A DNA stretch of 20,367 nucleotides from a virus, in IMG/VR virus record IMGVR_UViG_3300025083_000287, positions 1 through 20,367 of that record. One strand, given 5' to 3'. Below are positions 3-18,080 of the stretch, in pieces. The notes below the pieces were generated by a model. It had not been told where the DNA came from. It worked only from the letters and a program-made list of their open reading frames with translations, and ran no database searches. Each line of letters starts with the position of its first letter. Positions within the stretch are counted from its first letter, which is position 1. A program made the translations under genes and the position numbers.

Positions 3-3000
3 TTTGATATTTTCTTAGGAACACTTGATCATCCAAACACATACGTTAGTGGTGGTACTATAACATTCAATGGCAATTCTTACAATATTAGTGATTTTGT
101 ATATGACACAACTGTAACTGGTGTTGCTACAATTACTACTACTGCAGCTGCTATATCTGCACTGTCAGAAGATGACACTGTTCAATTAGCAGATATCTTA
201 ATTTCTTGTGCTGCTGGACAAAAAATTTATCCTGCATATAGTTCCCCAACAAACGCAAATACTGGGTCTAACGGTGATGAGCAGTGCAGACAAGATGTTA
301 TTCATTTTTTAAATGCTCTTGTTCGAGATCTTGAATTTGGATCTAACCATAATATTCTTGAAGCTGCCAGTAAGTACGTTGTTGGTGGTAAAATTACATA
401 CATTGAAGATGAAATTATACAGAATGTGCGTGCCATTGAATATGCCAGAGAATTGGCAATTTATGCAATGTGTAATTGGAGGATTAAGGATAGAACAATT
501 AATGATCCCGTTTACACAGTAAAGCATTCTACATTACCCAGATATATTGACGATACTATAATTTCAGCAACTGCAGGTGATCCTGCTTGTGATGATGTAA
601 GATCTGCTATTGATACACTAGCATATCTTTGGGCAGATGTTATTACAAATGATGCATCTGGAACATATCTGGATGCTGCTTATCTAATTGCTAAGAATGC
701 TGATCTAATTGCAGACCAAGCACTTATTGATACTGAGGTAGCATATCCAACTCTAGGTCTTTCAAACATTCGCCAAAGAAAATGTCGTAGAGATATTAGA
801 CTTGTAGTTGAAGGTCTTGTAAGAGACTTAGTATTGGGAGGAAACCATGGTGTTGTTTCTGCTGCAGAATCATATTTTAGCGGAACTGTTCTTTCTGGAA
901 TTCCAGAAGCACAATTAGAAGAAACTAGATATGCATTCCAGAAAGTAAAAGATCTTGCTATTGCGGCAATGCGTAATTGGTCTGATGGTGATGTTGTACC
1001 AACAACACCAACAGGATCTACATATGCTCCAACTACTGGAATACTTACAGTAACTTTCCCTAATCTTGCTATTATACCATCCCTTCAGGATAGGGTTGCT
1101 TTTGCTGAAGGTGCAATTACATACAGTTGTTCTCATGATGGTGGTGGTAATGATGCAAGTCCCTATAGAACTGATTTAAATTTTGGAAAAAGTTTCGCGC
1201 TTACAGATGTTTCATCTTCTGGCGGAAATACTACAATTACTGCTAATGTTGGAGTTGCTGGAACTAACACAGATGTACATGCGTTCGTAAGTGCTTTATC
1301 AAATGGAACTAAAATTATCTATGCTCCATTTGCTACTACATCACCTATTCCTAAGTTTGAGGATTGGAGTATTCTGGAAGACAGTGCAAACCCATCTTGT
1401 GCTGCTATTGCTTCTGCTATCACAACATCATTAGCAACTTTCGATAGTATTTTAGAGTATGCATCCGATGCTATAAATGGAACTGCTCCAGGTGCTATCA
1501 CTCAAACTTTCGGAACTTTATTTGATTTTGCTAGTATCATCAATTATCCAGATAGTTTTATCTATGATTTTAATAATCAGAGAATGGCAATTCGTGGTAG
1601 ATTTGATGATCTACCAATTATTGAAGCATCTCCATATACACAGAATGCTTCTATTATTTCTTTCAGAGGTGGTGGTGGTGCTCTAATTGATGGAGATAAA
1701 GTTAAGCAACCAAACTGTCCTTTCGCTGGTCTAGAACCAGACGGAACAGCATCGTTCCCAAATCAGGGTAAGTCGATGGTTGCTGCGGCATTCACGATTG
1801 TTTCCTTTGGTGGCACAGGATATAAAGTTATCAACGATGGTTATACCCAGTTAGTTTCCGTCTTTGTTATCTTCTGTCAAGATGGTGTTCTTTCTGAGAC
1901 TGGTGGTTATGCTTCTATCACAAACTCTGCTACAAACTTCGGCACCTTTGCTCTAAGAGGAACAGGTTTCCGTAAAGACGCATATGAGTTTGATGCAGGA
2001 ATTATAAACACTGTTTCACAGACTCCAACTGGTAGAACAACTCTTCGTATTGGAGATATTGGAAGAGAACCACTAGAACATTACATTGTTAAACTTGATG
2101 GGTATAGAAACGCAGATCCAGATAAAGAATTCTTTATTGATGCTGTATCTGAAGTTACTGTTGGTCCACCATTTGCTGCAACACTTACTATTGATGATGG
2201 TATAGGAAATGGTCTTTCTTTAATTAGAGAGTCTGATGGAGCTACTATCTCTGGTTTAACTGGACTACAGCAAGCACTGACGCCTGCAGGAGCAACAAAC
2301 GCAACTATAAGATTACACAGACCATCTATTGTTAACTCTTCTTCTCATACCTGGGAATTTGCTGGTTCTGGTAATAATTACCTCGCACTACCAGAGAACG
2401 GTGGAACTAAAGTTGAGGCAAATGAACAAGTATCCGAAAACTATGGTCGTGTATATGTCTCAGGTACTGACGAATTAGGTGATTTTAAGGTTGGAACATT
2501 TGCAAGAATTGAAAACAGAACTGGTAATATTACTTTCACAGGTACTGTTACAATTTCGGAAGTTGAATTCCTGAAATTGAAAGGTGGTGATGTTGTTGTT
2601 ACTGGTTTCGATAACTCTAATACTCTTGGTGGTGCCAATACCAGTGATTCTAAACTACCTACTCAGAAAGCAGTTAAGGATTATATTACCAACAACCTTG
2701 GTCCATATATCAACAAACCATATTCTACGAACGCTGTTCCTAGAGCACTAGTAGAACTTACTGACTCTGGTAAGATTTCCATTGACCAAATTCCAGCATT
2801 AAGACCTTTCCAAGTCTTTACAGTTCCAGACCAAGCAGCAAGAACTTCTCTTGATGGAGCACTTGCAGGTGATATTGCAATTCAGCAAGATACATCACAA
2901 TCATTTATTTTAAACAATGATCTCGATAGTTTGTTCTTAGCGTTTGCAGTAGATTCAAGCCTCGTATTTAATATAAACGATGTTTATACAGGCACACCTT

Positions 3001-6000
3001 CTACCGGTAGAATTCAAGCTACAGAATATAGAGAGGGTGTACTTCACACTATCAACATCTCAAACGGTGGTTCTGGATATACAGTTGCACCTACTGTAAG
3101 TATCAGTGGTGGCAATCCTGTTGCTGGTGCTGTTCCCGCAACTGCAACATGTAGCATTGCTAACGGCGAAGTTGTTACTATCACAATCGAAGAAAACGCT
3201 GGTTTAGTTGGTGGTTCCGGATATACAACACAACCAGTAGTTACTATCACAGCACCTCCTGGAGCTGGCACACAAGCAACTGCGGATGGATTTATTGAAA
3301 GCAGATTGTATGGCGATATTGTTAACAATATCAAGATGCTTGATACTGATACTTTTGATGATAGTGATTCACCAAGTGCAAATACAATTAATATTACTAG
3401 AGTTGTTAATACTTCTTCTAATGATATTAATAATTGGGTTGGACTATCATCCAACCAGATTGCTGCTTCTGATATTCAATCAGGTACTATCGAAACAGAT
3501 AGATTAGCAACTGGTGGTGCTGCAAACTCATTCACATTCCTACGTGGTGATCAGAATTTTGCTCCTGCTGTACAATCTATTAAAGGTGCTGAAACAAGAT
3601 ACTTTGCAAGACTATTCACGACAGCATCAGATGGTTCAAGTTCCTTTATTTTTGAGTTCAATCAAAATGCTTTAATTGGTCATGAAGTTATCGCTAATAT
3701 AGCAGGAATTCCAGCAAATACAACTATTAACGGTGTTTCAACTGTTGCTGGAATTACGACAGTTTCAATTAACAATCCCGTCACTGCTGATATTGCAGCA
3801 GGAACTGTTATTGAATTTGAAAGAGGTAGTTCTCCTTTAACGTTTGACTCTTCAAATACAACTGGTAATTTTATTGATAGCGTTGTTATTGCTAACCCTG
3901 GTAGTGGTTATACCAATGGACAATTTTTTGATATTCGTCTAGATGGTGGATCAGGGGTTGATCTTAGAGCTAATTTAATTATCTCTGGTGGTGAAATTAC
4001 TGACGCTACTGTAACAAACTCTGGTAGTGGTTATACTTCCGACTTCCAAGTCACTCCAAATCCAGCTACTATTGGTGGAGGATCTAACCTAGTTCTTCTT
4101 GCAAAAGTTAGCACGGTTAATAAACAGTTTGCTAATGTTGCTATTGATATTCAGAGAGTTTCTGATCTAACTATTTCTGCGGATGAATTTGGATCTATTG
4201 GTGTTGCCAGATTCAGAAAATCTCAGTTTAATATTGGTCAAGAAGGTAATGGATCTATTACAATTAAAACAGGTAATCAGAGTGGACTTGACGCTGATTT
4301 GCTGGATGGTGCTCAAGGTGATTTCTACTTAGACGGCAACAATTTTGGTGATAGAAGTATTGGACCAGATAAACTTAAAGATGATACTTATGGTATTAAT
4401 ATTGGTGGCAGATCCGGTAATACTCTAAGACTACTAACAGGTACTAGTAATCCAGCGTCCAATTTATCACCAAGTGAAAATGTTGAAGGTGTATCAGTTA
4501 AAACTGTATTTAATAGTTCTAATGGTCTTTTATCTGCATTCCCAAGTGTAGATACTGGAACTTCTAACTCTGCCAAACATTTGGTAATGACTCTCCGTAA
4601 TGGTGGATCTGGTATCGATACTTCGTTTGGTGGTGTAAGACAACTTGCGTTTGCTAATGATGATCGACTTTATTTGCGTGGTTCTGGTGATGCTGTAACA
4701 TCTTTCGGATCTTGGTATGAAATTTGGAACTCTGGAAACCAAGGTATTGATTCTGGACTAGATGCAGATAAACTTGATAACAAACAGGGTGCTTGGTATC
4801 AAGATGGTTGGAATATTCAGAAAAATGAAATTTTTGATACAAGACTTCCATCATGGAGAAGTTCTACTAAGTTCAGAGATAAGATTGAAATTAAATCTTT
4901 CTCCGGATCAGATGTCTCTTACAGAATTCTAGTAAGACAAGTTCTTGATGCTTCGCCAGGTGGAGTTTTTGCACCAGGATCTCAGATTAATATTTACAAC
5001 ATTAACAAGCAAGATATTGGTGATTTCTTCATTGATCTTGCTCCTCAATTAAATGATGCTAATGATTCTGCTAATAGTTATACAATGCTTATTGGTAGAT
5101 TAGCATCTGGTGGTAATCTTGAGGATGCAGTATTCCTTGGTGTTGCAGGTGATGAAAGACGCTTTGAAAATTATGAAATTTTTGACAGCAACACAACACA
5201 GTTTGCTGAACTTGGAAACAATTCTGGTAATGGATTCTTAAGACTTGGAAGATATGATGGTTTGTTTGCTACAAGTCCATATGTATATTTCAACTCATCT
5301 CAATCACAAGCAGTAGATAACAACGGAGATCCTACTTTTAACTCTGCTATTATTGCGACTGGTGGTGATGCAAATGAAGGATCTGGTAGTCTTGAATTTA
5401 AGGTTGTCAACGAAAATGAACTGACAGTTAATAATAATATTATTTGGAACGCAGGTAATGTTGCATTTAATAGTGCTAATGTAGTTTCTACAACATCACT
5501 TAAGTCTGCTGTGATGAGAGATACCTCTGGTAATTTTACTGCCAATACAATTACTGCTGGACTGACTGGTGCTGCTTCTCTCAACGTATTGAAAACTGGT
5601 GATACAATGACTGGTGGTTTGACTATCACTGGCAATAACAATATCAATATCCAAGGAACTGGTACTTTTAATGTTGGTGGTAATGCTACGCTAGGAGCAG
5701 ATCTAACTGTTGATAGTGGAACTTTCTACGTTAATTCTACCGATAATTTAGTTAACGTAGGTCAGACAACTAATGCTAATAATCTCACCTTTAATGTTTA
5801 TACAGAACTTGGTGATGATGAGTTTGCTACAGGAGCAGCATTATCTTCTCAAAGATCACTTTACCAATCAAGTGTATTTAACCAAGTAGATACTGGTGAA
5901 TCTGGCATCATTCTACAGCATGGTGCTTCTGGTGCTGCACAGTGGGGTATTACAACACACAGAACAGGTAGCAGTGTTGGTGAACTTATTATTAGAACCA

Positions 6001-6845
6001 GAACAGCAACTTCTACTTCCGCAACACGACTCACAATTTCTAATGGTGGTAATATTCTTCCTGGTGCTGATAGCGACCAAGATTTAGGTAGTGATTCTGT
6101 AAGATGGCAGAATATTTACAGTGATATTACACATGCACTTAACAGTGTAAGAATTGCTAAAGGAACTGCAAACCAAGAAGCAGACTTACAGTTTAGAGGT
6201 GGTGGAACTGGAGCAGGTGGCGGTAGAGGATTCCGTTTAGGAAACAACATTGGCGGTGGAGCTGATTTGTTTGAAATCTATGCATCACAAACAGTAGGAG
6301 ACGATGATTGGAAGAGTCTCGCAACTCCAAATGCATTACCACCAGCACTTTCAATTCAAGGTGAAAATAATAGAGTTGGTATTAACACTAACACTTTCTC
6401 TGGTACTGACACCAGTGCATCTCCAAATATTAACAGAGATTATATCCTGAATGTTCAGGGTGATATGAACCTCAACGGTCAATTCTTCCAAAACAATGAG
6501 GAGTTTGTTACTTCTAGATGGACAGAATCTACCAACCAAACGGATATCTACAGACTATCTAAAGTAGGTATTAATGTTGCTAATCCAACAGATACATTAC
6601 AAATTTCTGGTAATGTCAATATTGAAGGATCTACTTTTACTAGTGGACAAAATACTTCTGTTCTAGAAGCAAATGGAGAAAAACAATATATTGACACCTA
6701 CGGAATTGTCAAGAGAAACAGTAATCAAATTTCTGAAGATCTTACAGTTGGTTCTAATGATAGATGCATGTCAACCGGACCTATTGAAGTTATTGGTGAT
6801 GTCGTGGTAACTGTACAAACAGGTGGTGTATGGGTTGTGTTATAA
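3..6845 (+). CDS. Giant fibre/adhesin-like virion structural protein (5' partial)
   Basis: The frame is open from the left edge of the window to a TAA at 6843-6845, giving 2280 visible residues. A GTG at 426 is simply an internal Val codon, so the real start lies upstream. Visible residues about 93-326 hold two helical Cys-containing modules that resemble each other. Later parts carry hallmarks of phage tail fibres: SDSKLPTQKAVKDYI (about 881-896), two LDAD-type motifs, GLDADLLDGAQGDFYLDG (about 1428) and GLDADKLDNKQGAWYQ (about 1585), and KTGDTMTGGLTI (about 1863). Gly-rich GGSGYT beta-modules lie at about 1017-1100 and 1293-1368. Composition is rich in Gly, Asn, Ser and Thr, as in beta-structured fibres. 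In T4-like phages the region just before gp13 encodes baseplate and fibre proteins, which fits. The exact place in the virion cannot be told; a baseplate-attached long fibre is the simplest reading. Confidence 0.85.
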   Translation, partial: FDIFLGTLDHPNTYVSGGTITFNGNSYNISDFVYDTTVTGVATITTTAAAISALSEDDTVQLADILISCAAGQKIYPAYSSPTNANTGSNGDEQCRQDVIHFLNALVRDLEFGSNHNILEAASKYVVGGKITYIEDEIIQNVRAIEYARELAIYAMCNWRIKDRTINDPVYTVKHSTLPRYIDDTIISATAGDPACDDVRSAIDTLAYLWADVITNDASGTYLDAAYLIAKNADLIADQALIDTEVAYPTLGLSNIRQRKCRRDIRLVVEGLVRDLVLGGNHGVVSAAESYFSGTVLSGIPEAQLEETRYAFQKVKDLAIAAMRNWSDGDVVPTTPTGSTYAPTTGILTVTFPNLAIIPSLQDRVAFAEGAITYSCSHDGGGNDASPYRTDLNFGKSFALTDVSSSGGNTTITANVGVAGTNTDVHAFVSALSNGTKIIYAPFATTSPIPKFEDWSILEDSANPSCAAIASAITTSLATFDSILEYASDAINGTAPGAITQTFGTLFDFASIINYPDSFIYDFNNQRMAIRGRFDDLPIIEASPYTQNASIISFRGGGGALIDGDKVKQPNCPFAGLEPDGTASFPNQGKSMVAAAFTIVSFGGTGYKVINDGYTQLVSVFVIFCQDGVLSETGGYASITNSATNFGTFALRGTGFRKDAYEFDAGIINTVSQTPTGRTTLRIGDIGREPLEHYIVKLDGYRNADPDKEFFIDAVSEVTVGPPFAATLTIDDGIGNGLSLIRESDGATISGLTGLQQALTPAGATNATIRLHRPSIVNSSSHTWEFAGSGNNYLALPENGGTKVEANEQVSENYGRVYVSGTDELGDFKVGTFARIENRTGNITFTGTVTISEVEFLKLKGGDVVVTGFDNSNTLGGANTSDSKLPTQKAVKDYITNNLGPYINKPYSTNAVPRALVELTDSGKISIDQIPALRPFQVFTVPDQAARTSLDGALAGDIAIQQDTSQSFILNNDLDSLFLAFAVDSSLVFNINDVYTGTPSTGRIQATEYREGVLHTINISNGGSGYTVAPTVSISGGNPVAGAVPATATCSIANGEVVTITIEENAGLVGGSGYTTQPVVTITAPPGAGTQATADGFIESRLYGDIVNNIKMLDTDTFDDSDSPSANTINITRVVNTSSNDINNWVGLSSNQIAASDIQSGTIETDRLATGGAANSFTFLRGDQNFAPAVQSIKGAETRYFARLFTTASDGSSSFIFEFNQNALIGHEVIANIAGIPANTTINGVSTVAGITTVSINNPVTADIAAGTVIEFERGSSPLTFDSSNTTGNFIDSVVIANPGSGYTNGQFFDIRLDGGSGVDLRANLIISGGEITDATVTNSGSGYTSDFQVTPNPATIGGGSNLVLLAKVSTVNKQFANVAIDIQRVSDLTISADEFGSIGVARFRKSQFNIGQEGNGSITIKTGNQSGLDADLLDGAQGDFYLDGNNFGDRSIGPDKLKDDTYGINIGGRSGNTLRLLTGTSNPASNLSPSENVEGVSVKTVFNSSNGLLSAFPSVDTGTSNSAKHLVMTLRNGGSGIDTSFGGVRQLAFANDDRLYLRGSGDAVTSFGSWYEIWNSGNQGIDSGLDADKLDNKQGAWYQDGWNIQKNEIFDTRLPSWRSSTKFRDKIEIKSFSGSDVSYRILVRQVLDASPGGVFAPGSQINIYNINKQDIGDFFIDLAPQLNDANDSANSYTMLIGRLASGGNLEDAVFLGVAGDERRFENYEIFDSNTTQFAELGNNSGNGFLRLGRYDGLFATSPYVYFNSSQSQAVDNNGDPTFNSAIIATGGDANEGSGSLEFKVVNENELTVNNNIIWNAGNVAFNSANVVSTTSLKSAVMRDTSGNFTANTITAGLTGAASLNVLKTGDTMTGGLTITGNNNINIQGTGTFNVGGNATLGADLTVDSGTFYVNSTDNLVNVGQTTNANNLTFNVYTELGDDEFATGAALSSQRSLYQSSVFNQVDTGESGIILQHGASGAAQWGITTHRTGSSVGELIIRTRTATSTSATRLTISNGGNILPGADSDQDLGSDSVRWQNIYSDITHALNSVRIAKGTANQEADLQFRGGGTGAGGGRGFRLGNNIGGGADLFEIYASQTVGDDDWKSLATPNALPPALSIQGENNRVGINTNTFSGTDTSASPNINRDYILNVQGDMNLNGQFFQNNEEFVTSRWTESTNQTDIYRLSKVGINVANPTDTLQISGNVNIEGSTFTSGQNTSVLEANGEKQYIDTYGIVKRNSNQISEDLTVGSNDRCMSTGPIEVIGDVVVTVQTGGVWVVL
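279..479 (+). repeat. Helical Cys module, copy 1 (within giant protein)
   Basis: This encodes a 67-residue module beginning EQCRQDV and ending AIYAMCNW. It aligns with the module at 771-980: both have C-R-x-D near the start, LVRDL, G-x-NH, an Ala-rich AA..Y stretch, and a helix ending in A-x-x-A-M-x-NW. It is likely an internal duplication within the fibre protein. Confidence 0.7.
771..980 (+). repeat. Helical Cys module, copy 2 (within giant protein)
   Basis: This is the second copy of the module at 279-479. Shared landmarks are KCRRDI, LVRDL, GGNHG, AAESY and LAIAAMRNW. A shorter, different Cys-containing helical motif (PACDDVRSAIDTLAYL, about nt 580) lies between the copies, and a weaker relative of that motif (PSCAAIASAI) is seen near nt 1390. 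Confidence 0.7.
3051..3300 (+). repeat. Gly-rich GGSGYT beta-module pair (within giant protein)
   Basis: Two units of the form I-x-x-GGSGY-T-x-x-P-x-V-x-I follow one another: NGGSGYTVAPTVSISGG, then GGSGYTTQPVVTITAPPG. A linker of alternating hydrophobic residues (GEVVTITIEE) lies between them. The same unit occurs inside the neck protein gp14 (13509-13712). Confidence 0.7.
3879..4106 (+). repeat. Degenerate GSGYT beta-module pair (within giant protein)
   Basis: Two more copies of the unit, ANPGSGYTNGQFFDIRL and TNSGSGYTSDFQVTPN, are separated by a Gly-rich strand segment. The P-x-V-x-I half is less well kept than at 3051-3300. Confidence 0.6.
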
Positions 6846-6848
6846 ATA
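6841..6848 (+). promoter_or_regulatory. T4-type late promoter box TATAAATA
   Basis: TATAAATA is the exact T4 late-promoter consensus. It overlaps the TAA stop of the giant fibre gene and ends 23 nt before the ATG at 6872. An AAGGA ribosome-binding site at 6861-6865 would be in the resulting leader. It probably drives the three-paralog cluster and the oxygenase genes behind it. Confidence 0.7.
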
Positions 6849-6871
6849 ATTGAGACGCCTAAGGAATACAC

Positions 6872-7978
6872 ATGGGAGCTGTAAAAGCTGATATCTTTAC
6901 TTCCACGGGCGGGCCCACTGGTATTTTAGGTTTTCCAACAGGAACAACTGCACAAAGACCCAGCCCCGCTCAGGAAGGATTTGCAAGGTACAATACTGAT
7001 ATTGGTGCCATTGAAATTTATTACTCTGGTGCTTGGAATAAACTTTCTTCTGGCGCAGCTGCTGGAGCAGATGGATCTTCGTCAGCAAATGCTTTTGCAA
7101 ATTTAGAAGATATTGTTGGTTTATACGACAATGGAACATATAATTTGTGGACCACTATTGGTGGAAATACATCAGCATTCCAAATGCCGATTTGTTTTGA
7201 TCATGGTGGTCCTTGGTATGTTTTAAGTTTTAATTTCCCAACATACGGATTTAATGAAACTAATAATACATTATGGTCATGGGCGTATAATACTACCACT
7301 TCAAGTGCTTTAAAAAATATCCATGATGACTTTGTTCATCATCACTTCTCTAGATCTGGCAATCAATATGGTTGGCAGATGGCAAATGCTGAAAGAAATA
7401 GAGAAGATATGGCAGGAATTGGTGGATCAGGAGTCTCTGGATATAACCAAACCAATGGTGGAGGTGGTAATAGTGGATATGTTGATATTAATTATTACAA
7501 TCATGCGTCCGGTTCTAATTTTACCAGTTCTCAATTAAATGCTTTGCGTGATACAGTCAGTCAATTATCGCATTTAACACCACACTATTCATTTACAGCT
7601 GATAGTGATGGTAATCTTTCAGGTAGTGTTGGTGATTGGACGGTTGACAATGATGAAACAACTCTAGGTTATGGACATTGTAACTGGATCAAAGATAAAA
7701 ATGGTCAAGCACAAAGAACCAGTAATGGTTTTGAAAATGCTGATAATAATGGTTTCTGTGGTTTCTGGACACATAACCAATACTCTAGATATTCTATTCC
7801 ATTTAACTGGGCATGGAGTCAAACAGTTGGTAATCCAGAAGGGTTAAGAACTAATGCTTTAATTATCCCAAATGAAATTAAAGGATACACTGGATCAGGT
7901 GGCGGCAGTGCATTTGGAACTTATTTTAGTGGTGCTGTAGGCAAAATTAATAACCGTGCTATATTTCTCTGTAGGTAA
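6872..7978 (+). CDS. Fibre-tip/adhesin-like virion protein, paralog 1 of 3
   Basis: A 368-residue protein. Its N-terminus (about 1-60) carries a pattern frequent in phage fibre proteins: a Thr-Gly stretch, GTTAQRPSPAQEGFARYNT, then E-x-YY-x-x-G-x-W. The middle has LYDNGTYNLWTT followed by FDHGGPWY (GGPWY at 112-116), a YNHA motif (about 209-212), an acidic DSDGN loop (about 245) and a C-terminal GYTGSGGGSAFGTY (GSGGG at 341-345) running to a short strand end. The 'GxYxxW...FxxxxCFDxGGPWY' arrangement is reminiscent of fibrinogen-like C-terminal domains, but I cannot confirm this. It has a good AAGGA ribosome-binding site and starts a tandem trio with the next two genes. A role at the host-contacting end of the tail fibres is inferred from the fibre-like N-terminus and position. 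Confidence 0.75.
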   Translation: MGAVKADIFTSTGGPTGILGFPTGTTAQRPSPAQEGFARYNTDIGAIEIYYSGAWNKLSSGAAAGADGSSSANAFANLEDIVGLYDNGTYNLWTTIGGNTSAFQMPICFDHGGPWYVLSFNFPTYGFNETNNTLWSWAYNTTTSSALKNIHDDFVHHHFSRSGNQYGWQMANAERNREDMAGIGGSGVSGYNQTNGGGGNSGYVDINYYNHASGSNFTSSQLNALRDTVSQLSHLTPHYSFTADSDGNLSGSVGDWTVDNDETTLGYGHCNWIKDKNGQAQRTSNGFENADNNGFCGFWTHNQYSRYSIPFNWAWSQTVGNPEGLRTNALIIPNEIKGYTGSGGGSAFGTYFSGAVGKINNRAIFLCR

Positions 7979-7983
7979 TAAAA

Positions 7984-9075
7984 ATGAGTAGAGTAGAAGC
8001 AGACAATTTTTATAGTGCTGGATCAGCATCAACTGGTGCAATAGGAATTCCAAAAGGTCAAGAAAACGAAAAACCAGTAAGTAATTTGCCTCAAGCTGGT
8101 CTCCGTTTCAATGAGACCACTGGAGGAATTGAGTTGTATGCAGGTGGTGCATGGTCTAGTTTTGGTTCTGGAGGTGCTGATGGATCTACTTCTGCCTCTG
8201 CATTTGGATATTTGTCCGAGGTAGAAGGTCTTTATACTGGCACTCAGAATTTGTGGACTACTGTTGGTGGGCAAGTTTCTCCATTTCAAATTAGTGTAAA
8301 TTTTGATATTGTTGGTGGACCTTGGTATGAAGCTTCATTTTCATTTCCAGATGGTATTACTAGTGGTGGTATGAGCAGTGATATGGTTCATGTTACCAAT
8401 AGTGCTACCAACGATGGTTTCAAAGGTGCATATAATGAAAATGTAAATGTCGGATATGGAGCACAAAGTTTTCCTTCTCTGTATGGACATTCTATTACTG
8501 CCACTCAAGGTGAAGGTATCACGGTAACAGGAGAAGTAACGACAGGATCTTCTGGTGGTACTACAAGTGTTAGATCAATTAATTATTTAAATCACGCAAC
8601 TAATTCTAATTTTTCATCTATACAATTAAATGCATTGAGAAATATTATTAGTAAGTTGTGTCCAGCAACTCCTTTTGTTGGTTCTGATTATGACTCTGAT
8701 GGTAATCAGTCAACACAAATTGGTTGGGAAAGACCGTGGGATCGTTATGCAGAATCTGGAACTGGGTATACACATATTGTTTATATTAGGGATGTAGATG
8801 GAAATACACAAATGACATGTGTTGGATCATCCGATCCATCAAACAATGGTCAAGCATACCTATGGACAGAAAACACATTCCAGAGAGTTAGAAATTATGT
8901 TGATGCTGAGGAAGCTGGTGTTGGTGCTGAACCATATGGTTTGTTAAATAGTAAGATGATTCTGCCAGCGCAATGGTTTGGTTATACTGGATCTGGAGGA
9001 GGTGCTGCTTTTGGTGCCTATTATAATTCAGATATTGGTAGAAAAAATAATAAAGTAGTATTCTTATTTAAATAA
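7984..9075 (+). CDS. Fibre-tip/adhesin-like virion protein, paralog 2 of 3
   Basis: A 363-residue paralog of the preceding gene, beginning 5 nt after its stop codon. The same landmarks appear in the same order: a fibre-like N-terminus with LPQAGLRFNETTGGIELY, LYTGTQNLWTT, GGPWY at 111-115, a YLNHATNSNF motif, a DSDGN acidic loop and GYTGSGGGAAFGAYY near the C-terminus (GSGGG at 336-340). The stretch between GGPWY and the NHA motif differs strongly from paralog 1. That is expected if this part varies for receptor recognition, though it is inference. The ribosome-binding site is a modest AGG next to the previous stop. Co-transcription with the flanking paralogs is likely because no promoter box or terminator lies between. 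Confidence 0.75.
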   Translation: MSRVEADNFYSAGSASTGAIGIPKGQENEKPVSNLPQAGLRFNETTGGIELYAGGAWSSFGSGGADGSTSASAFGYLSEVEGLYTGTQNLWTTVGGQVSPFQISVNFDIVGGPWYEASFSFPDGITSGGMSSDMVHVTNSATNDGFKGAYNENVNVGYGAQSFPSLYGHSITATQGEGITVTGEVTTGSSGGTTSVRSINYLNHATNSNFSSIQLNALRNIISKLCPATPFVGSDYDSDGNQSTQIGWERPWDRYAESGTGYTHIVYIRDVDGNTQMTCVGSSDPSNNGQAYLWTENTFQRVRNYVDAEEAGVGAEPYGLLNSKMILPAQWFGYTGSGGGAAFGAYYNSDIGRKNNKVVFLFK

Positions 9076-9080
9076 AAGTC

Positions 9081-10169
9081 ATGAGCACAGTACAATCCAA
9101 TCTTTTCGTAACGATAGGTGGCGACACTGGAGCCATGAAACTTCCTGTTGGAACTACATTAGAGAGACCACAGACACCACAAACTGGTTATCTTAGATTT
9201 AATAGCGATGATAAAGCTTTAGAATATTATACAAGCACCCAATGGAAACAAGTTGCTGGAACTAAAAAAGGAAGTAATCCTTCTGCAGCATTTGATTCTT
9301 TAAGTGAAGTTGATGGAGCATATAGTGGTCAACAAGTTTTATGGACTACAGCAGGTCAAGGAAGTAACATCATGCCTTTCAAAGTTTTGGTTGACTTTGA
9401 TACTGCGGGTGGTCCTTGGTATGTAATTACTCCACAAAATTATCCTGGTGGAACAGGAAACTCCAAATATGTATTTGGTGGTGCCTCATATGATATGGCG
9501 GGTAATGACATCATGAAGCAATCACATACACAGAATGTGGATATTGGTTTGGGTCAAGGATCACAAAATGTCAGATCTCTTTTTGGACTCACAGATAACG
9601 CAAACTTTGGTCAATTAGAAACTGCAGTTAGTGGAGCATTTACTCCATCTGATAATAGCAATAACATGTATGCATGGTTTCCGTATTTTTATTACAATCA
9701 TGCTACAAGTAGTCATTTTGCTGATGATCAGGTAAGAGCGATTGCGTCATCAATTAACACACTATCTCCATTAACACCATGGATTGGTGTTGATTCGGAT
9801 TCTGATAGTAATAGTTCTGGAAACAGCAATACTTCATGGAACTCTTATAGTACCAGTGGTCTTAGTAATGGACATACTACTTGGGTTAAAGATTTAAATA
9901 ATAATGTTCAGAGAATGATGAATGCGTTTTCTGGTAATAATGAGTCTTGCGTTTATGTCTGGACGAGAACTAGTTTTTCTAGGTTTAATACTGGAGGAGG
10001 GTTTAATAACTCAAATGGATCTCCAGGGGGACTACTTACAGATGCAATGATTATGCCAATTTTTCACAAATACTGGACAGGATCTGGCGGTGGTTCTGGA
10101 TTTGGACCTTACTACAACCCAGCAATTCAAAACAGAATTAACGGATATACCTATATGCTCGTGAAATAA
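9081..10169 (+). CDS. Fibre-tip/adhesin-like virion protein, paralog 3 of 3
   Basis: A 362-residue third member of the paralog set, 5 nt behind the second. It keeps the N-terminal fibre-type pattern GTTLERPQTPQTGYLRFN, the YSGQQVLWTT segment, GGPWY at 110-114, YYNHATSSHF, a DSDSDSN acidic loop and WTGSGGGSGFGPYY (GSGGG at 334-338). It looks the most divergent at both ends: the final residues are YTYMLVK, against AIFLCR and VVFLFK in the others. There is no clear Shine-Dalgarno sequence before the ATG, so translation may depend on coupling to the upstream gene. Three oxygenase-like genes follow directly, the first starting 2 nt after this stop. Confidence 0.75.
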   Translation: MSTVQSNLFVTIGGDTGAMKLPVGTTLERPQTPQTGYLRFNSDDKALEYYTSTQWKQVAGTKKGSNPSAAFDSLSEVDGAYSGQQVLWTTAGQGSNIMPFKVLVDFDTAGGPWYVITPQNYPGGTGNSKYVFGGASYDMAGNDIMKQSHTQNVDIGLGQGSQNVRSLFGLTDNANFGQLETAVSGAFTPSDNSNNMYAWFPYFYYNHATSSHFADDQVRAIASSINTLSPLTPWIGVDSDSDSNSSGNSNTSWNSYSTSGLSNGHTTWVKDLNNNVQRMMNAFSGNNESCVYVWTRTSFSRFNTGGGFNNSNGSPGGLLTDAMIMPIFHKYWTGSGGGSGFGPYYNPAIQNRINGYTYMLVK

Positions 10170-10170
10170 T

Positions 10171-10731
10171 ATGAATGAACCTATTGAATTTGGCGATGTT
10201 TTGCCAAAAATTTTATTTGATGAAATTGGAGAAGAATTATTTAAAAAAGGTTGGAGATTATCAAATAAATCTGTTAAAGGAACAAAGAGATTTTGGACAC
10301 AGTATCAGGTAGATAATCCAATCTTCAATAAAGCTGGAGAGATTGTATTAGAAAAGATAAAAAAATCTACAGATGAAAGTATTAAGTTAGTTAGAATTCA
10401 TTGTAACGGACAAACAACAGGTCAAGATAGCGCAGCTCATGTTGATTTTTGGGCAGATAATGTTTGGACTTTTATTTTATTCACCAATAAAATTTGGGAC
10501 GTTAGGCTTGGTGGCGGATTCAATGTTATAAATCCCGAACTAAAAAAACATCAATATTACCACTATGCATCTAATTGGGGTGTGTTAATTCCATCTAAGT
10601 GGATGCATTGGGGAGATCCCCCAAATTCTCATACCGATGAATTAAGAACTTCGGTTGCTTTTTCTTTTACAATTGCAGATCAATATGATATGATTAAACA
10701 GAAAGCAATTGAAAGTGAACCATCTAAATGA
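10171..10731 (+). CDS. 2OG-Fe(II) oxygenase-like protein 1
   Basis: A 186-residue protein. The double-stranded beta-helix signature of Fe(II)/2-oxoglutarate dioxygenases can be read: the iron ligands H90-x-D92 (in AAHVDFW) and H146 (in IPSKWMHWG), then R159 (in LRTSVAFSF) for binding the 2-oxoglutarate carboxylate. Between them lie strand-like segments (WTFILFTN) and a GGGF loop. Such enzymes hydroxylate or otherwise oxidise a substrate using O2 and 2-oxoglutarate; the substrate is not visible from sequence. The gene follows the fibre paralog by 1 nt and its stop overlaps the next start (ATGA at 10728-10731). This placement suggests late expression and possibly action on virion proteins, or on host small molecules. 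Many such genes are known in cyanophages. Confidence 0.7.
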   Translation: MNEPIEFGDVLPKILFDEIGEELFKKGWRLSNKSVKGTKRFWTQYQVDNPIFNKAGEIVLEKIKKSTDESIKLVRIHCNGQTTGQDSAAHVDFWADNVWTFILFTNKIWDVRLGGGFNVINPELKKHQYYHYASNWGVLIPSKWMHWGDPPNSHTDELRTSVAFSFTIADQYDMIKQKAIESEPSK

Positions 10732-11243
10732 TTTACAATCTAAGTAATCCTTTTACTGCAGATTACAAACAATTTAAAAACATTGTAACCTCATCAGATT
10801 TTCCATGGTTGTATAGTAAAACTACAAACATTGATTCTGAAGAAAATGATTGTGAATTGTTTTGTCATCCTTTACTGCAGAGACCAGGACCAGGATCAAG
10901 ATTTACAAAACAGTGTAGCAACTATACAGAGTTATCTGTGCATGTTGCCGAACAAATTTTAAATTACAATAGAGTTGAGTTTGAAACGTTTTGTCGCATG
11001 GCAGTCAACTTTACATATAACACTAAAGTTGGAAGTCCAAAACACGAAGATCATCCATTCCCACACAAAAATTTATTAGTATACCTCAGTTCTTTTGAGG
11101 ATGGTTCTACTGTAGTATGTGATGAGGATGAAATACATAAATCAAAACCAGTAGAAGATCTGCCAATCGTTTTTGCTGGATCACATTACAACGAACCACC
11201 ATCATCTGGAAACAGAATTGTTCTTATCGCAACCTTTATATAA
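10728..11243 (+). CDS. 2OG-Fe(II) oxygenase-like protein 2
   Basis: A 171-residue protein. The proposed ligands are H106-x-D108 (in PKHEDHPF) and H153 (in FAGSHYNEPP), with R163 (in NRIVLIATF) as the 2-oxoglutarate anchor. The spacing of 45 residues from D108 to H153 and 10 from H153 to R163 is typical of the prolyl-hydroxylase-like branch. The strand LLVYLSSFEDGSTVV after the HxD fits the fold. It is translationally coupled to the preceding oxygenase by an ATGA overlap, and the next gene begins right after its stop. The protein is short for the superfamily and mostly core domain. Its substrate is unknown. It is not obviously a close copy of its neighbours outside the catalytic signature. Confidence 0.7.
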   Translation: MIYNLSNPFTADYKQFKNIVTSSDFPWLYSKTTNIDSEENDCELFCHPLLQRPGPGSRFTKQCSNYTELSVHVAEQILNYNRVEFETFCRMAVNFTYNTKVGSPKHEDHPFPHKNLLVYLSSFEDGSTVVCDEDEIHKSKPVEDLPIVFAGSHYNEPPSSGNRIVLIATFI

Positions 11244-11771
11244 ATGACTATTGAAATTATTGATGATGCTTTAGCGCCAATGGAGATGGCTGCAATGGAA
11301 GGTCATCTAATGGGACAAGACATTCTTTGGAACTGGAATGAAAATATTGTTGCCGAAGAGAAAAGAGAGTGTGAGAAAAAATATGATCAACAAATGACAC
11401 ATTTGTTTTATATGAATCCCACATTTATGTCTCCAGATTACAGGTGTCTGGAACCTCTTTTTTATAAATTAAATGCTAGTGTTATGGTTCGGGTCAAAGC
11501 TAATCTAACATTTTGCACGGAAAAAAATATTCTTACAGGATGGCACACTGATGTAATTGAATCTTGGGGCAAAGAACATAAAACAAAAACAGCAATTTAT
11601 TATGTAAATGACACTAATGGATACACTATGATTAGAGATGATGACGGTGTAGAAACTAAAGTGGAAGGTAATAAAAACAGACTAGTTATTTTCCCATCAC
11701 ATTACAATCATGCGGGTGTTACTTGCACATCTCCAAGAAGAAGAATTGTAGTTAACGTTAATTATCTTTGA
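11244..11771 (+). CDS. 2OG-Fe(II) oxygenase-like protein 3
   Basis: A 175-residue protein with the clearest signature of the three: W100-H101-T102-D103, then TAIYYVND strands, a D-x-D-G hairpin, and FPSHYNHAG (H156 the likely distal iron ligand, H153 an alternative). The RRRIVVNVNY end (R165-R167) supplies the 2-oxoglutarate-binding Arg. The 'FPSxxxHxG...RxxxNxNY' ending is characteristic of small phage and bacterial 2OG-Fe(II) oxygenases. It starts on the base after the previous stop. It is the last gene of this transcription unit before a late promoter box at 11770. Its role is not determinable; virion-protein hydroxylation and host-metabolite modification are both possible. Confidence 0.8.
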   Translation: MTIEIIDDALAPMEMAAMEGHLMGQDILWNWNENIVAEEKRECEKKYDQQMTHLFYMNPTFMSPDYRCLEPLFYKLNASVMVRVKANLTFCTEKNILTGWHTDVIESWGKEHKTKTAIYYVNDTNGYTMIRDDDGVETKVEGNKNRLVIFPSHYNHAGVTCTSPRRRIVVNVNYL

Positions 11772-11777
11772 TAAATA
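11770..11777 (+). promoter_or_regulatory. T4-type late promoter box GATAAATA
   Basis: GATAAATA overlaps the TGA stop of the third oxygenase gene (11769-11771) and ends 28 nt before the ATG at 11806. It differs from the T4 consensus TATAAATA at the first base only. Confidence 0.55.
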
Positions 11778-11805
11778 ACTCTATACACAATTACATGTGA
11801 TAACC

Positions 11806-12003
11806 ATGGATCCAGCACAACTCAAAACAAATTTTGAAGAGCAAATTGCTACAACCGAAAAGCAAATTGCGGAACTAGAAGAAAACCTAACCAAGGCAAG
11901 AGAGTATAAGATTAAACTCCAAGGTGGTCTTGAAACTTTAGGTCTTCTAGAAGACAAACCTGAGGAAGCAGCAGCACCTGCGGCAGAAACCACAGAAGAA
12001 TAA
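11806..12003 (+). CDS. Short coiled-coil protein upstream of gp13
   Basis: A 65-residue, very acidic and helical protein. An in-frame GTG at 11797 would add three residues (MIT), but the ATG at 11806 is preferred because homologous small proteins usually begin at ATG and neither start has a good ribosome-binding site. Residues about 5-45 form a heptad-like coiled coil (FEEQIATTEKQIAELEENL) rich in Glu, Lys and Leu. The tail is a flexible Glu/Ala/Pro segment (EEAAAPAAETTEE). It has its own late promoter box upstream and a strong terminator just after its stop, so it is probably a one-gene unit made in quantity. T4 encodes the coiled-coil whisker protein fibritin (wac) in this position, but this protein is far shorter and no sequence match is claimed. 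Function unknown. Confidence 0.7.
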   Translation: MDPAQLKTNFEEQIATTEKQIAELEENLTKAREYKIKLQGGLETLGLLEDKPEEAAAPAAETTEE

Positions 12004-12010
12004 CTCTCAG

Positions 12011-12045
12011 ATCCCTTCTTCCTAAATAGGTAAGAAGGGATTTTT
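12011..12045 (+). terminator. Rho-independent terminator after the coiled-coil gene
   Basis: A perfect 10-bp inverted repeat, ATCCCTTCTT (12011-12020) and AAGAAGGGAT (12032-12041), runs into a TTTTT tract ending at 12045. The inner bases CCTA..TAGG can extend the stem. It begins 7 nt after the stop of the 65-residue gene. Confidence 0.85.
12022..12028 (+). promoter_or_regulatory. Late promoter box CTAAATA in terminator loop
   Basis: CTAAATA, the late-promoter variant seen in cyanophages, sits in the apical part of the terminator hairpin, 24 nt before the gp13 ATG at 12053. Transcription starting some 6 nt downstream would omit the left arm of the terminator, so the gp13 message would not be terminated by it. 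Confidence 0.55.
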
Positions 12046-12052
12046 GTGTGTA

Positions 12053-12853
12053 ATGGCGTCTCCAAATTCAAGAGCTGATCTTATCACATATTGTAAGAGG
12101 CAACTTGGTGAGCCTGTATTACAAGTCAACATTGATGACGAACAAGTAAATAATGTTATTGATGACACGTATCAGTTCTTCCAAGAGAACTGCTACAACG
12201 GCATGGAAAGATGTTTCATGAGGCATGAAATTACTGCCGATGACATAACTCGTTTCAATGGCAAATCAACAACATCATCTGGAACAACAAATTGGGAAGA
12301 GTCTACTAACTATATTCCTGTTCCAGATCATGTAGTTGGTGTCAGTAAAGTTTTTGGTTTAGTCAGCAACTCAATTAGATCCAATCTCTTTGGTGTTGAG
12401 TATCAGATGTTCCTGAATGATCTATATGCATTTGGGTCTCTTGATATTGTCAACTACTTTATGAACAAACAGTATCTAGAAACTCTAGATATGATTCTGA
12501 ATAATGGTTCGTTCCAACAGTTCAGATATACACAGCGTCGTGATCGTTTATATCTTGACATCAATAAAGCATTCCTCAAAGAAGATACCTATCTTGTAAT
12601 TGAGGCACATAGGATGATTGATCCTACGGATGCTACAGAGATGAATAATGATATGTTTGTCAAGAAATATGCTACTGCTCTTATGAAGAGACAGTGGGGT
12701 CAAAACTTGATTAAATATAACAACGTTCAACTACCTGGCGGTATCACGCTTAATGGTAGAGAATTATATACAGACGCATTAGGCGAGATTGAGAAGATCG
12801 AAAGCGAAGTTCTCAGTAAGTACGCCATTCCACCTATGGATATGATCGGATAA
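12053..12853 (+). CDS. 13: gp13-like neck protein
   Basis: A 266-residue protein matching the T4 gp13 head-completion/neck family. That protein joins gp14 in a ring under the portal, closing the filled head and receiving the tail. Recognisable features are the N-terminal [16 protein letters not shown] segment with a following [15 protein letters not shown] helix, and the C-terminal [20 protein letters not shown] region. T4 gp13 is 309 residues, so this is somewhat shorter. An in-frame GTG at 12044 would add MCV, but the ATG at 12053 gives the usual start ([10 protein letters not shown]). It is directly followed by gp14 (1 nt gap), as in T4. Expression is probably from the late box at 12022. 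Confidence 0.9.
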
Positions 12854-12854
12854 G

Positions 12855-13979
12855 ATGCCTACTAGTCCCTACTTTCCAACTTACTACGCAGGTCATAGCG
12901 GCGAGCAAGGTCTCGCACAGGATCTTGTGGATGAACAAATCAAACTGTTCGGAACAGACATATATTATATTCCTAGAGTAGCTCTAAAAGATAACACTCT
13001 TAATGAGGTTAGATACTCTAAGTATCAAGAACATTTTCAAATTGAGATGTTGCTTCAAAACGTTATGGGATTTGGAGACAACGCTGAGTTTATCTCTAAG
13101 TTTGGTTTAAGGATTACTGATGAGATTATCTTCAGAGTATCCACTAGAAGATGGGAGGAAGAAGTAGCAGATCACAATCCTACCATTACTGTTGAGAGCA
13201 GACCTAACGAGGGAGATCTACTCTACTTCCCACTAACAAAAGATATCTACGAGATTAAATTTGTTGGTAAGGAAGAACCATTCTTCCAGTTTGGTAAGAT
13301 CCAATTTTATGCTATCACTGCTGAGATCTATGAGGTTGGTAGTGATTCGTTTGATACAGGTGTTGAAGAGATTGATGATGTGGAAGAACTATTTGATCCA
13401 GCAATTAAACTATTCATGGACCCCGGTGGTATTGGGGACTTTGTAGTTGGAGAAGAGATTGTTGGCGATGAGTTCTTAGCAAAAGCAACATCTACTATTA
13501 CAGGCGATGTTGTTACAAGTATTACAATTTCAGATGGTGGAGCACATTATAAAGTTGCTACACCACCATCTGTAACTATTTCTGGAGGAGGTGGAACAGG
13601 TGCAACTGCTACTACAACGGTTAGCTCTACTGGTATTGTCAATGGCGTTTCTATCACTAGTGGCGGTTCTGGGTACACAAGTGCTCCTACTGTCACTATT
13701 GACTACAGCCCTAAAGACAACAGAGCAGAAGTTAAGTCCTGGGATAGCGCAACCAGAGCTCTCCAAGTCTACAATAGAACAGGAACCTTTACTACTGCTG
13801 AAGTAATTACTGGTATAACTTCAGGTGCCAAGTGGAGTCCTGAGACATTCGACACTCTAAATAATACCAACAGCAACTACGATCAGAATAGACAGATCGA
13901 AGATTCTGGTGATGAGATTATCGATTGGACTGAAGGTAATCCATTCGGTGAATTTGGCAACTTTACGGATAGCATCTAA
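12855..13979 (+). CDS. 14: gp14-like neck protein with inserted Gly-rich module
   Basis: A 374-residue homolog of the T4 neck protein gp14 (256 residues). The first 180 or so residues follow the family: [16 protein letters not shown], then [21 protein letters not shown] and [10 protein letters not shown]. The last residues ([15 protein letters not shown]) resemble the short conserved C-terminal patch of T4 gp14 (SPFDNDFMD). Between them lies an insertion. It includes FVVGEEIVG, a pair of GGSGYT-type units at about 219-286 ([21 protein letters not shown] and [14 protein letters not shown]), and a further [16 protein letters not shown] unit. These beta-rich repeats are not in T4 gp14 and match units in the giant fibre protein. 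With gp13 the protein forms the neck; the insertion may decorate the outside of the collar. Its stop codon overlaps the gp15 start by one base (TAATG). Confidence 0.9.
13509..13712 (+). repeat. GGSGYT beta-module pair inside gp14
   Basis: Two units of the 'GG-x-x-Y-x-x-x-P-x-V-x-I' type are encoded here ([19 protein letters not shown] and [16 protein letters not shown]). The second is nearly identical in pattern to the units at 3051-3300 in the giant fibre gene. Confidence 0.75.
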
Positions 13980-14779
13980 TGTTAGGATCACATTTTTATA
14001 ACCAAATAGTTCGCAAGAACATTATTGCTTTTGGTACACTCTTCAATAATATCACAATGAAGAGTTCTGATCCTGAAACAGGAGAAGTTTTAGAGGAAAT
14101 TAAAGTTCCTCTTGCCTATGGACCAAAACAAAAGTTCCTGGTTCGTATTGGAGAGAATGCTGGCAGCAGTAAAGTAGCAATTACTTTGCCTCGTATATAC
14201 TTTGAAATGACAGGTGTTGAATACGATTCTTCTCGTAAGACATCACCAATTCAAAAATACAAAACAATCATTGCTGATAATGGTAATGAAGTCAAAGTGC
14301 AGTATGTTCCTGTTCCTTATAATATAAGTTTTGAAGCGGGAATTATTGCTAAGTCTCAGGATGATGCTCTGCAAATTCTAGAGCAGATCTTGCCATACTT
14401 CCAACCATCATTTTCTGTGACTCTTAATATGATTCCAGATATGAACGAGAAAAAAGATATTGCTATTGTATTAAACAATATTGGCACCGAAGATGAGTGG
14501 GATGATAGTTTTCTAAACCGTAGATATATTGTTTACACTCTCAACTTCACAATGAAGTCATACCTCTACGGTCCTTACAGCACTTCTAATATTATCAGGA
14601 AGGCAATTATCCACGAAACTATTGGAGATGCTGCTGTCAGTCGTAGAACTATTACACGCACATATACACCCAAAGCAGTTGTAGACATTAATACAGATGG
14701 CGTTATCGATGTAAATGATGATGCATTAGTAGATGCTGGCGATGACTTTGGATTTAATGAAGGGATTGAATTCTTATGA
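13979..14779 (+). CDS. 15: gp15-like proximal tail sheath stabilisation protein
   Basis: A 266-residue protein, close to the 272 residues of T4 gp15, the ring that caps the tail and joins it to the neck. The N-terminus [19 protein letters not shown] followed by LFNNITMKSSDPETG is typical. KVPLAYGPKQKFLVRI, the RIYFEMTGVEYDSSRK segment and a Tyr-rich TLNFTMKSYLYGPYS region are also characteristic. The ATG overlaps the gp14 stop by one base, and its own stop overlaps the gp16 start (ATGA at 14776-14779), so translation is coupled on both sides. The C-terminus is unusually acidic (DINTDGVIDVNDDALVDAGDD), an EF-hand-like D-x-N-x-D-G pattern that might bind calcium. Confidence 0.9.
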   Translation: MLGSHFYNQIVRKNIIAFGTLFNNITMKSSDPETGEVLEEIKVPLAYGPKQKFLVRIGENAGSSKVAITLPRIYFEMTGVEYDSSRKTSPIQKYKTIIADNGNEVKVQYVPVPYNISFEAGIIAKSQDDALQILEQILPYFQPSFSVTLNMIPDMNEKKDIAIVLNNIGTEDEWDDSFLNRRYIVYTLNFTMKSYLYGPYSTSNIIRKAIIHETIGDAAVSRRTITRTYTPKAVVDINTDGVIDVNDDALVDAGDDFGFNEGIEFL

Positions 14780-15189
14780 GTAACCTAGAAGATAATATGG
14801 AGGAAATCCTCAACATTAGTGCTGAAGTTGTTGAGGAATCTAAACCATCTAAACCTCAACCACCCAAGGTTGATGCTGAAGATCGTGAGAAAGATTACAG
14901 ATATACACGTACAGAATTATACTCCCTCATAGACAAGGGTCAGGAGGCGGTTAACGGTGCCTTAGAGGTCGCTCAGGAGTCAGGGCACCCAAGAGCGTAT
15001 GAAGTCGCTGTAGCGGCAATGAAGCACGTTGCAGACATGACTGACAAACTTGCTGATCTTCATAAGAAGATGAAGGATCTTGACGAAGATAAGAAAGGTC
15101 CATCAAAAGTTACCAACAATGCTATGTTTGTAGGATCTACAGCAGAACTTCAGAAGATGCTTAAAGATATGAGTGGAGGAAAACGCTAA
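14776..15189 (+). CDS. 16: gp16-like small terminase subunit
   Basis: A 137-residue protein in the gp16 position between gp15 and the cargo block preceding gp17. The small terminase forms a ring that recognises phage DNA and stimulates the gp17 motor. The sequence is highly charged and mainly helical. The central stretch RTELYSLIDKGQEAVNGALE, AMKHVADMTDKLADLHKKM and the following Lys/Asp-rich segment agree with the helical core seen in T4-like gp16 proteins. T4 gp16 is 164 residues, so this is a little shorter. Identification rests on position as well as sequence character. The start overlaps the gp15 stop. The TAA stop is embedded in the next late promoter box. Confidence 0.8.
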   Translation: MSNLEDNMEEILNISAEVVEESKPSKPQPPKVDAEDREKDYRYTRTELYSLIDKGQEAVNGALEVAQESGHPRAYEVAVAAMKHVADMTDKLADLHKKMKDLDEDKKGPSKVTNNAMFVGSTAELQKMLKDMSGGKR

Positions 15190-15192
15190 ATA
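15186..15192 (+). promoter_or_regulatory. Late promoter box CTAAATA
   Basis: CTAAATA overlaps the gp16 stop codon (15187-15189) and ends 25 nt before the ATG at 15218, the same spacing as the boxes before gp13 and the paralog cluster. It would drive the DUF6321-like gene. Confidence 0.55.
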
Positions 15193-15217
15193 ATCTCGTA
15201 AAACCTCGTCGGTTGTT

Positions 15218-15643
15218 ATGAGAGATTTTAGAGAATTTAAGGAACTCTGCGAAGCTAAGCGTGGTTTGTATGCAAACATTCACGCAAAGCGAAAACGAGG
15301 AGAAGCACCAGCGAAGTCAGGTAGTAAGGATTACCCCGCTAAGGATGCTTTTCAAAAGGCGGCGAGGACTGCCAAAGAAAGTTTTGAACTCACCACAGAA
15401 GCAGCCTGGACAAAAAAAGCAGGCAAAAACAAAGAAGGAGGTCTCAATGAAAAGGGACGGAAATCTTACGAAAGAGAAAATCCTGGAAGCGACCTTAAGG
15501 CACCAAGCAAGAAGGTTGGAAATCCCCGTCGCGCATCATTCTGCGCTCGAATGAAGGGCATGAAAAAGAAACTAACCAGCAAAAAAACTGCCAGTGATAA
15601 GGACAGCAGAATCAATAAATCTCTACGTAAGTGGAATTGCTGA
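15218..15643 (+). CDS. Basic DUF6321-like phage protein
   Basis: A 141-residue, strongly basic Lys/Arg/Gly-rich protein. It has two blocks common in phage genomes. An N-terminal block (about 15-52) reads GLYANIHAKRKRGEAPAKSG followed by DYPAKDAFQKAART. A C-terminal block (about 63-141) runs from AAWTKKAGKNKEGGLNEKGR through NPGSDLKAPSKKVGNPRR to SFCARMKGM and the terminal LRKWNC. I recall the second block as DUF6321; this is from memory and unchecked. Function is unknown; the charge suggests nucleic-acid binding or association with packaged DNA. There is no clear Shine-Dalgarno before the ATG, and the start codon lies in a possible hairpin (15195-15222). It opens the cargo block between the small and large terminase genes. 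Confidence 0.8.
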   Translation: MRDFREFKELCEAKRGLYANIHAKRKRGEAPAKSGSKDYPAKDAFQKAARTAKESFELTTEAAWTKKAGKNKEGGLNEKGRKSYERENPGSDLKAPSKKVGNPRRASFCARMKGMKKKLTSKKTASDKDSRINKSLRKWNC

Positions 15644-15692
15644 CATACTTGTGAAAAGAATATTAAAATAAAGCAATTTTACTCACACAATC

Positions 15693-15698
15693 TATAAT
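15693..15698 (+). promoter_or_regulatory. Host-sigma-type -10 box TATAAT
   Basis: A perfect TATAAT in TCTATAAT lies in the 61-nt AT-rich gap between the DUF6321-like gene and the 55-codon ORF. There is no good -35 box at the usual spacing. The ATG at 15705 is only 7 nt downstream, so a transcript from here would be leaderless or start translation at a later ATG (15717 or 15723). Confidence 0.5.
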
Positions 15699-15704
15699 TA
15701 TATT

Positions 15705-15872
15705 ATGAGTTCTGATATGACAATGCGTTTAAATGACAGCGACATCACACGTCTAATCACAGCTTGCCGTCTCTACCAAGAGAAGACAGGTTCTGAATAT
15801 ATGTGGGACGAATACGACCATTTAATTACTAAACTCAATACTTATAAAGAACAACATTCTGTAGCGAAATGA
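15705..15872 (+). CDS. Small hypothetical protein upstream of plastocyanin
   Basis: A 55-residue ORF, MSSDMTMRLNDSDITRLITA onward, ending at a TGA that overlaps the plastocyanin ATG (ATGA at 15869-15872). Alternative in-frame ATGs lie at 15717 and 15723; none of the three has a strong ribosome-binding site. The sequence looks like a two-helix protein with an Asp/Glu/Tyr-rich middle. It loosely resembles the 63-residue protein at 16642 in length and in its 'LxxxDxxxLhhx...' pattern. I do not recognise it. The overlap with petE and the TATAAT box just upstream make it the likely first gene of the plastocyanin operon. Confidence 0.6.
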   Translation: MSSDMTMRLNDSDITRLITACRLYQEKTGSEYMWDEYDHLITKLNTYKEQHSVAK

Positions 15873-16192: not shown

Positions 16193-16201
16193 GAGACCAC
16201 G

Positions 16202-17501: not shown

Positions 17502-17548
17502 GTGTAAACTGACACTTATAAAAAAGTAGCTAAACGATACATCTTTTT

Positions 17549-18060: not shown

Positions 18061-18080
18061 TGGTGAACTAGGTTTTTGTT

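Follow-up and report, generated by a model that had tools for sequence, protein, structure and literature searches.

Why should a phage carry three consecutive 2OG-Fe(II) oxygenase genes directly behind its fibre genes, and on what might the encoded enzymes act? The genes lie in a 20,367-base IMG/VR record, referred to here as the window. Besides a plastocyanin gene, it contains T4-like neck and packaging genes (a gp13-like gene of phrog_211, and a large terminase identified by reading the sequence), and its proteins have relatives among cyanophages and pelagiphages. The virus is marine, T4-like and of the cyanophage type. The plastocyanin gene (petE, 15869-16192), a known host-derived cyanophage gene, sits among the packaging genes. 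The genes of interest run in the order large tail fibre, F1, F2, F3, OX1, OX2, OX3, a small phrog_580 gene and gp13, as follows:

3..6845, + strand: large tail fibre protein, 5' end beyond the window (phrog_5342 'tail fiber protein', 3268 bits)
6841..6848, + strand: TATAAATA, a late promoter motif of the T4/cyanophage type, lying 30 nt before F1 (motif search; conserved in L008, L010, L011 and the divergent L012)
6872..7978, + strand: F1, Gly-rich fibre-tip paralog (38/33% identity to F2/F3; N-terminus phrog_2803/1325; weak CBA120 TSP3 match over 40 residues)
7984..9075, + strand: F2, fibre-tip paralog (alignment with F1 and F3)
9081..10169, + strand: F3, fibre-tip paralog (tblastn, residues 10-116 resembling 'tail fiber-like' proteins of cyanophages; paralog alignment)
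10171..10731, + strand: OX1, 2OG-Fe(II) oxygenase, H90 D92 H146 R159 (phrog_274, E 2e-16; family matches PF13640, 10/11; motif invariant)
10728..11243, + strand: OX2, 2OG-Fe(II) oxygenase, H106 D108 H153 R163, ATGA overlap with OX1 (phrog_274, E 2e-26; AF2 model; Foldseek)
11244..11771, + strand: OX3, 2OG-Fe(II) oxygenase, H101 D103 H156 R167 (phrog_274, E 2e-41; PF13640, 31.7 bits)
11770..11777, + strand: GATAAATA, another late promoter motif, which overlaps the stop codon of OX3 and precedes the following gene by 26 nt (motif search)
11797..12003, + strand: small conserved protein, outside the F-OX unit (phrog_580)
12044..12853, + strand: gp13-like neck / head-tail adaptor, outside the F-OX unit (phrog_211, E 5e-44)

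A hairpin with a T-run (ATCCCTTCTT...AAGAAGGGATTTTT) was seen at the end of the phrog_580 gene (12004-12060). As this hairpin is overlapped by the TTG at 12044 that is listed as the gp13 start, gp13 probably starts at the ATG at 12053.

The three oxygenase genes are where the initial annotation had placed them, all with ATG starts and each with an intact H-x-D...H...R set. Every motif position given for OX1 and OX2 held, as did H101, D103 and H156 of OX3; the Arg of OX3, given as R165-R167, is R167, as this is the conserved residue and R165 is not. The iron triad and the Arg are invariant or nearly invariant in the family alignments (n = 11 for OX1, 11 for OX2 and 15 for OX3). All three proteins matched phrog_274 over nearly their full length, with E-values low enough (2e-16, 2e-26 and 2e-41) to exclude a chance match. 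Against PF13640, OX3 scored above the cut-off (31.7 bits, cut-off 27), OX1 scored below it (18.5 bits) and OX2 itself had no match, while the profile was matched by 10 of the 11 sequences in the OX1 alignment, 4 of 11 for OX2 and 12 of 15 for OX3 (26 of 37). An NCBIfam match to FlmC, a 2OG oxygenase, lay far below the cut-off and was dropped. The three proteins had been described as distant from each other, and blastp indeed found no match between them (E 0.07 or worse). Their family profiles were joined by hhalign with the catalytic residues aligned (OX2-OX3 99.8%, OX1-OX3 97.8%, OX1-OX2 92.5%). Judged by sequence, OX1, OX2 and OX3 are very divergent homologous members of the 2OG-Fe(II) oxygenase superfamily (PF13640 / P4H-like). 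Among near relatives dN/dS was 0.01-0.19 for the oxygenases, which shows that they are selected as proteins (purifying selection).

OX2, the weakest case for family membership, was chosen for AF2 modelling with 22 sequences, giving a mean pLDDT of 86.5 and a pTM of 0.84. The closest solved folds found by Foldseek were PHD2/EGLN1 and the Pseudomonas putida P4H (E about 1e-6; P. putida structures 4j25 and 4iw3, the latter with EF-Tu), with PiuC further down. The OX1 and OX3 profiles also placed EGLN1 near the top, weakly. OX2 is thus modelled as a double-stranded beta-helix fold, to which OX1 and OX3 are tied through hhalign. It has similar Fe/2OG residues to PHD2/EGLN1 and P. putida P4H, but shares only about 10-18% identity with them and had no match among PDB sequence profiles. 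In a maximum-likelihood tree, OX1, OX2 and OX3 each fell in a supported clade of their own (11, 8 and 15 rows, respectively), and every one of these clades included members from other phages and from other places in the genome. The tree rules out a recent tandem triplication; three lineages were therefore brought together at the F-OX block.

The label 'DNA endonuclease V / denV' is widespread for this family, in phrog_274 and in RefSeq records (e.g. L005:7983-8552 and L006:8001-8489). The domain of T4 DNA endonuclease V (DenV; PF03013) was matched by 0 of the 37 family members, of which 26 match PF13640 instead, so the label looks like a propagated error. The PF13532 profile of AlkB-type DNA repair dioxygenases was likewise unmatched by OX1-OX3 or the 37 members. 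A profile seeded with OX3 also picked up a 'minor coat protein' (L064:16150-16848 and similar; E 1e-12), and this label may therefore also hide oxygenases. In motif, size, tandem occurrence and near-full-length match, OX1-OX3 resemble the cyanophage 2OG-Fe(II) oxygenases of phrog_274 (PF13640; T4-GC 100 'denV'). They differ in that identity to their best matches in isolates reaches only about 35-42%, and in that three lineages here share one late-type block with fibre-tip paralogs. The enzymes add new and divergent representatives to a superfamily already known from cyanophages, and the novelty is their arrangement with fibre-tip genes.

The F1-F3 proteins were mutually 33-38% identical by alignment, and full-length relatives were found only within the same contig group. 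A 40-residue N-terminal piece of F1 superposed on the CBA120 tailspikes TSP3/TSP4 with probability 1.0 but an E-value of 0.13. Apart from this piece, the F1 AF2 model, which was poor (pLDDT 57.8), had no significant fold match, and the F domain had no match among PDB profiles. The most plausible reading of F1-F3 is as fibre-tip or receptor-binding proteins whose C-terminal domain is specific to this lineage. They offer no collagen-like substrate: the longest run of Gly-X-Y repeats was 3 triplets in F1-F3 and 4 in the large fibre. The Gly-X-Pro repeat substrate expected for a peptidyl-prolyl hydroxylase of collagen type is not encoded nearby. A virus-encoded 2OG enzyme described in 1999, cited in PMC9301287 under a title announcing evidence for hydroxyproline in viral proteins, is a parallel in part; as cited there it is tied to collagen-type fibres, whereas F1-F3 and the large fibre lack collagen-like repeats.

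The genes from F1 to OX3 are tightly packed, with gaps of 5, 5, 1 (F3-OX1), -4 (OX1-OX2) and 0 nt (OX2-OX3). The cyanophage late-promoter motif has been described as NATAAATA (PMC2984593), and this motif brackets F1-F2-F3-OX1-OX2-OX3, with one copy upstream of F1 (at 6842), one at the OX3 stop (at 11771) and none between. Both copies are kept in three near relatives (L008, L010, L011); the distant L012 retains the first. As the count of ATAAATA in the window was not above chance, the argument lies in the position and conservation of the motifs and not in their number. Sigma-70-like sites and terminators inside the block were fewer than, or barely above, those in shuffled sequences, and were not used as evidence. 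With a motif before the first gene, tight packing and no internal late promoter, the block looks like a T4-type late transcription unit. Because the genes are tightly packed between two late-promoter motifs, in an arrangement kept in relatives, OX1-OX3 are probably made late, together with the fibre proteins.

Five near relatives retain the adjoining genes of the block as far as their contigs extend; one of these, L007, does not differ from the window where the two overlap and could be the same virus. The distant relative L012, whose gp13 is just 42% identical, keeps F1-F3 (50-59%), OX1 (65%) and OX3 (40%), and OX1 is more conserved there than gp13. It lacks OX2. Thus the proposed pairing of oxygenases with fibres persists over this distance for OX1 and OX3, but not for OX2. 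Between the block and gp13, L012 also encodes a class-III aminotransferase (11618-12820) and a 1703-aa subtilase/virion-structural fusion (12858-17969).

Further afield, the stretch between the fibre and gp13 is a hypervariable cassette slot, with differing cassettes among phages. In Sf-CH3 (L063 5686-14554) it holds Gly-rich fibre-tip genes, a tryptophan halogenase, 2OG oxygenases and a JmjC_2 (YcfD-type) protein; in S-SSM7, heptose, carbamoyltransferase and epimerase genes alongside 2OG genes; in HTVC008M, four 2OG genes on the strand opposite to the fibres; in S-RIM32, one short 2OG gene; and in S-H9-2, F-like fibre genes and no oxygenase. The Sf-CH3, S-SSM7 and HTVC008M cassettes share with the window the identical slot and the succession of fibre, small fibre-like genes, 2OG oxygenases and then gp13, but they have other oxygenase lineages, together with halogenase, JmjC_2 or sugar genes, and the HTVC008M genes are reversed. 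The Sf-CH3 slot resembles a protein-modification cassette. PrnA-type tryptophan halogenases recur near 2OG arrays and fibre or fibre-assembly genes, in L066 (syn9; 344-12606), L064 (S-SSM7; 8390-16848) and L065 (HTVC008M; 12443-19001). In S-H9-2 (L266:12536-15086), fibre-tip-like genes alternate with genes of 110-120 aa, and these small ones may be chaperones or alternative partners. It is conceivable, though unlikely, that in cyano- and pelagiphages the slot serves as a locus dedicated to protein tailoring, in which oxygenases, sometimes joined by a tryptophan halogenase and by a JmjC_2 hydroxylase, would chemically diversify receptor-binding fibre tips post-translationally. We found no description in the phage literature of adhesion tuned by chemically diversified fibre tips.

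Co-occurrence of oxygenases and fibres was analysed in 11 complete genomes (L154-L264), chosen for holding relatives of OX1-OX3. These contained 134 genes of the superfamily (5-22 per genome), which occurred throughout the genome and also formed tandem arrays. The rotation test used preserves the oxygenase genes' own clustering, and takes ORFs of at least 900 aa as a structural proxy that misses short fibre genes. By this measure the oxygenases were not enriched within 3 genes of such ORFs (15 vs 15.6 expected, p 0.57) or within 5 (25 vs 23.0, p 0.39), and showed a weak, borderline excess within 8 (43 vs 32.3, p 0.07). A general linkage of 2OG genes to fibres was therefore rejected. Oxygenase genes do cluster together (42 neighbouring pairs vs 14.7 expected), with divergent members in tandem arrays. 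The one structural place enriched was the stretch just upstream of gp13 (8 within 5 genes vs 2.8, p 0.02; 4 of 11 genomes), which is suggestive only, because several window sizes were tried. In these genomes the co-occurrence shrinks to a modest signal at the gp13 slot, and in S-H9-2 that slot has F-like fibre genes without oxygenases.

What do the enzymes do? The dedicated fibre-modification step envisaged at the outset gains from finding three distinct oxygenases, with a predicted protein-hydroxylase-like fold, in a compact block with fibre paralogs between late motifs. On this reading OX1-OX3 are Fe(II)/2-oxoglutarate dioxygenases that were recruited independently of one another, their predicted core being a double-stranded beta-helix of the prolyl-hydroxylase (PHD2/P4H-like) type. 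They would be transcribed late, as a single unit with the three paralogous fibre-tip genes, and would hydroxylate residues of the new fibre-tip proteins, of the large fibre or of its partners, either while the virion is assembled or beforehand. We favour late hydroxylation of fibre-tip proteins as the most likely function, tentatively and at slightly less than an even chance, because of the tight packing with fibre-tip genes, the late-type motifs, the protein-hydroxylase fold and the intact active sites. Several observations count against it. The closest isolate relatives of OX1 (Sf-CH8) and OX2 (S-CAM1) adjoin tRNA/NAD or clamp-loader genes, and three genes exceed the need of one modification site. 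The missing OX2 of L012, the oxygenase-free slot of S-H9-2, the opposite strand in HTVC008M and the lack of genome-wide enrichment also weigh against fibre hydroxylation. Our literature search found no example of a modified phage fibre.

The main rival among published readings is modulation of 2OG/nitrogen, proposed for cyanophage 2OG genes by Sullivan et al. 2010 (PMC3037559). Here the genes would be passengers in a hypervariable slot, drawn from a mobile cyanophage oxygenase pool that serves host takeover (2OG/nitrogen or energy metabolism), and their proximity to fibres would be incidental. The 5-22 copies per genome, scattered and in tandem arrays, and the differing cassettes that fill the slot fit this, as do the 24 such genes in one cyanophage genome, 'function not investigated' (Wang et al. 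2022, PMC9602691). Packing with fibre paralogs between two late-promoter motifs and the F-OX pairing retained in L012 do not, and mere consumption of 2OG would presumably not require three divergent active sites; we consider this reading somewhat unlikely. Modification of a small molecule or sugar (e.g. a glycan precursor for the fibre or host envelope) in place of a protein side chain is improbable: the sugar genes of the S-SSM7 slot, and the sugar and methyltransferase genes near the OX1 relative in Sf-CH8, point towards it, but the scan of window proteins picked out no sugar gene, and the solved structures closest in fold are protein hydroxylases, even if a fold leaves the substrate undecided. 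The same folds would allow hydroxylation of a host protein, such as a translation factor, to aid late phage production, as P. putida P4H does with EF-Tu. The matches to 4j25 and 4iw3 reflect the general P4H fold, however, and the neighbours are fibre genes and not translation genes, which makes a host substrate quite improbable. Least probable by our estimate, and very much so, is nucleic-acid repair, whether AlkB-like or as 'DNA endonuclease V'. A role in AlkB-type repair has been put forward for Syn9 genes that carry prolyl-hydroxylase domains, in a paper that also reports true denV to be absent from cyanophages (PMC2984593). The P-SSM2 and S-CAM1 relatives do adjoin clamp-loader genes, but none of the 37 members scanned against Pfam has either repair domain, and here OX1-OX3 are packed with fibre genes.

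Cyanophage genomes carry 5-24 such oxygenases, to which the literature consulted assigns no tested substrate. Where three of them occur in one late-type unit alongside a small set of defined fibre proteins, the search is reduced to a handful of candidate substrates. The F-OX arrangement makes a 15-year-old speculation (2OG metabolism or DNA repair) directly testable, with fibre finishing as a concrete hypothesis. If the fibres are modified, phage receptor binding would gain a chemical layer that is invisible to sequence.
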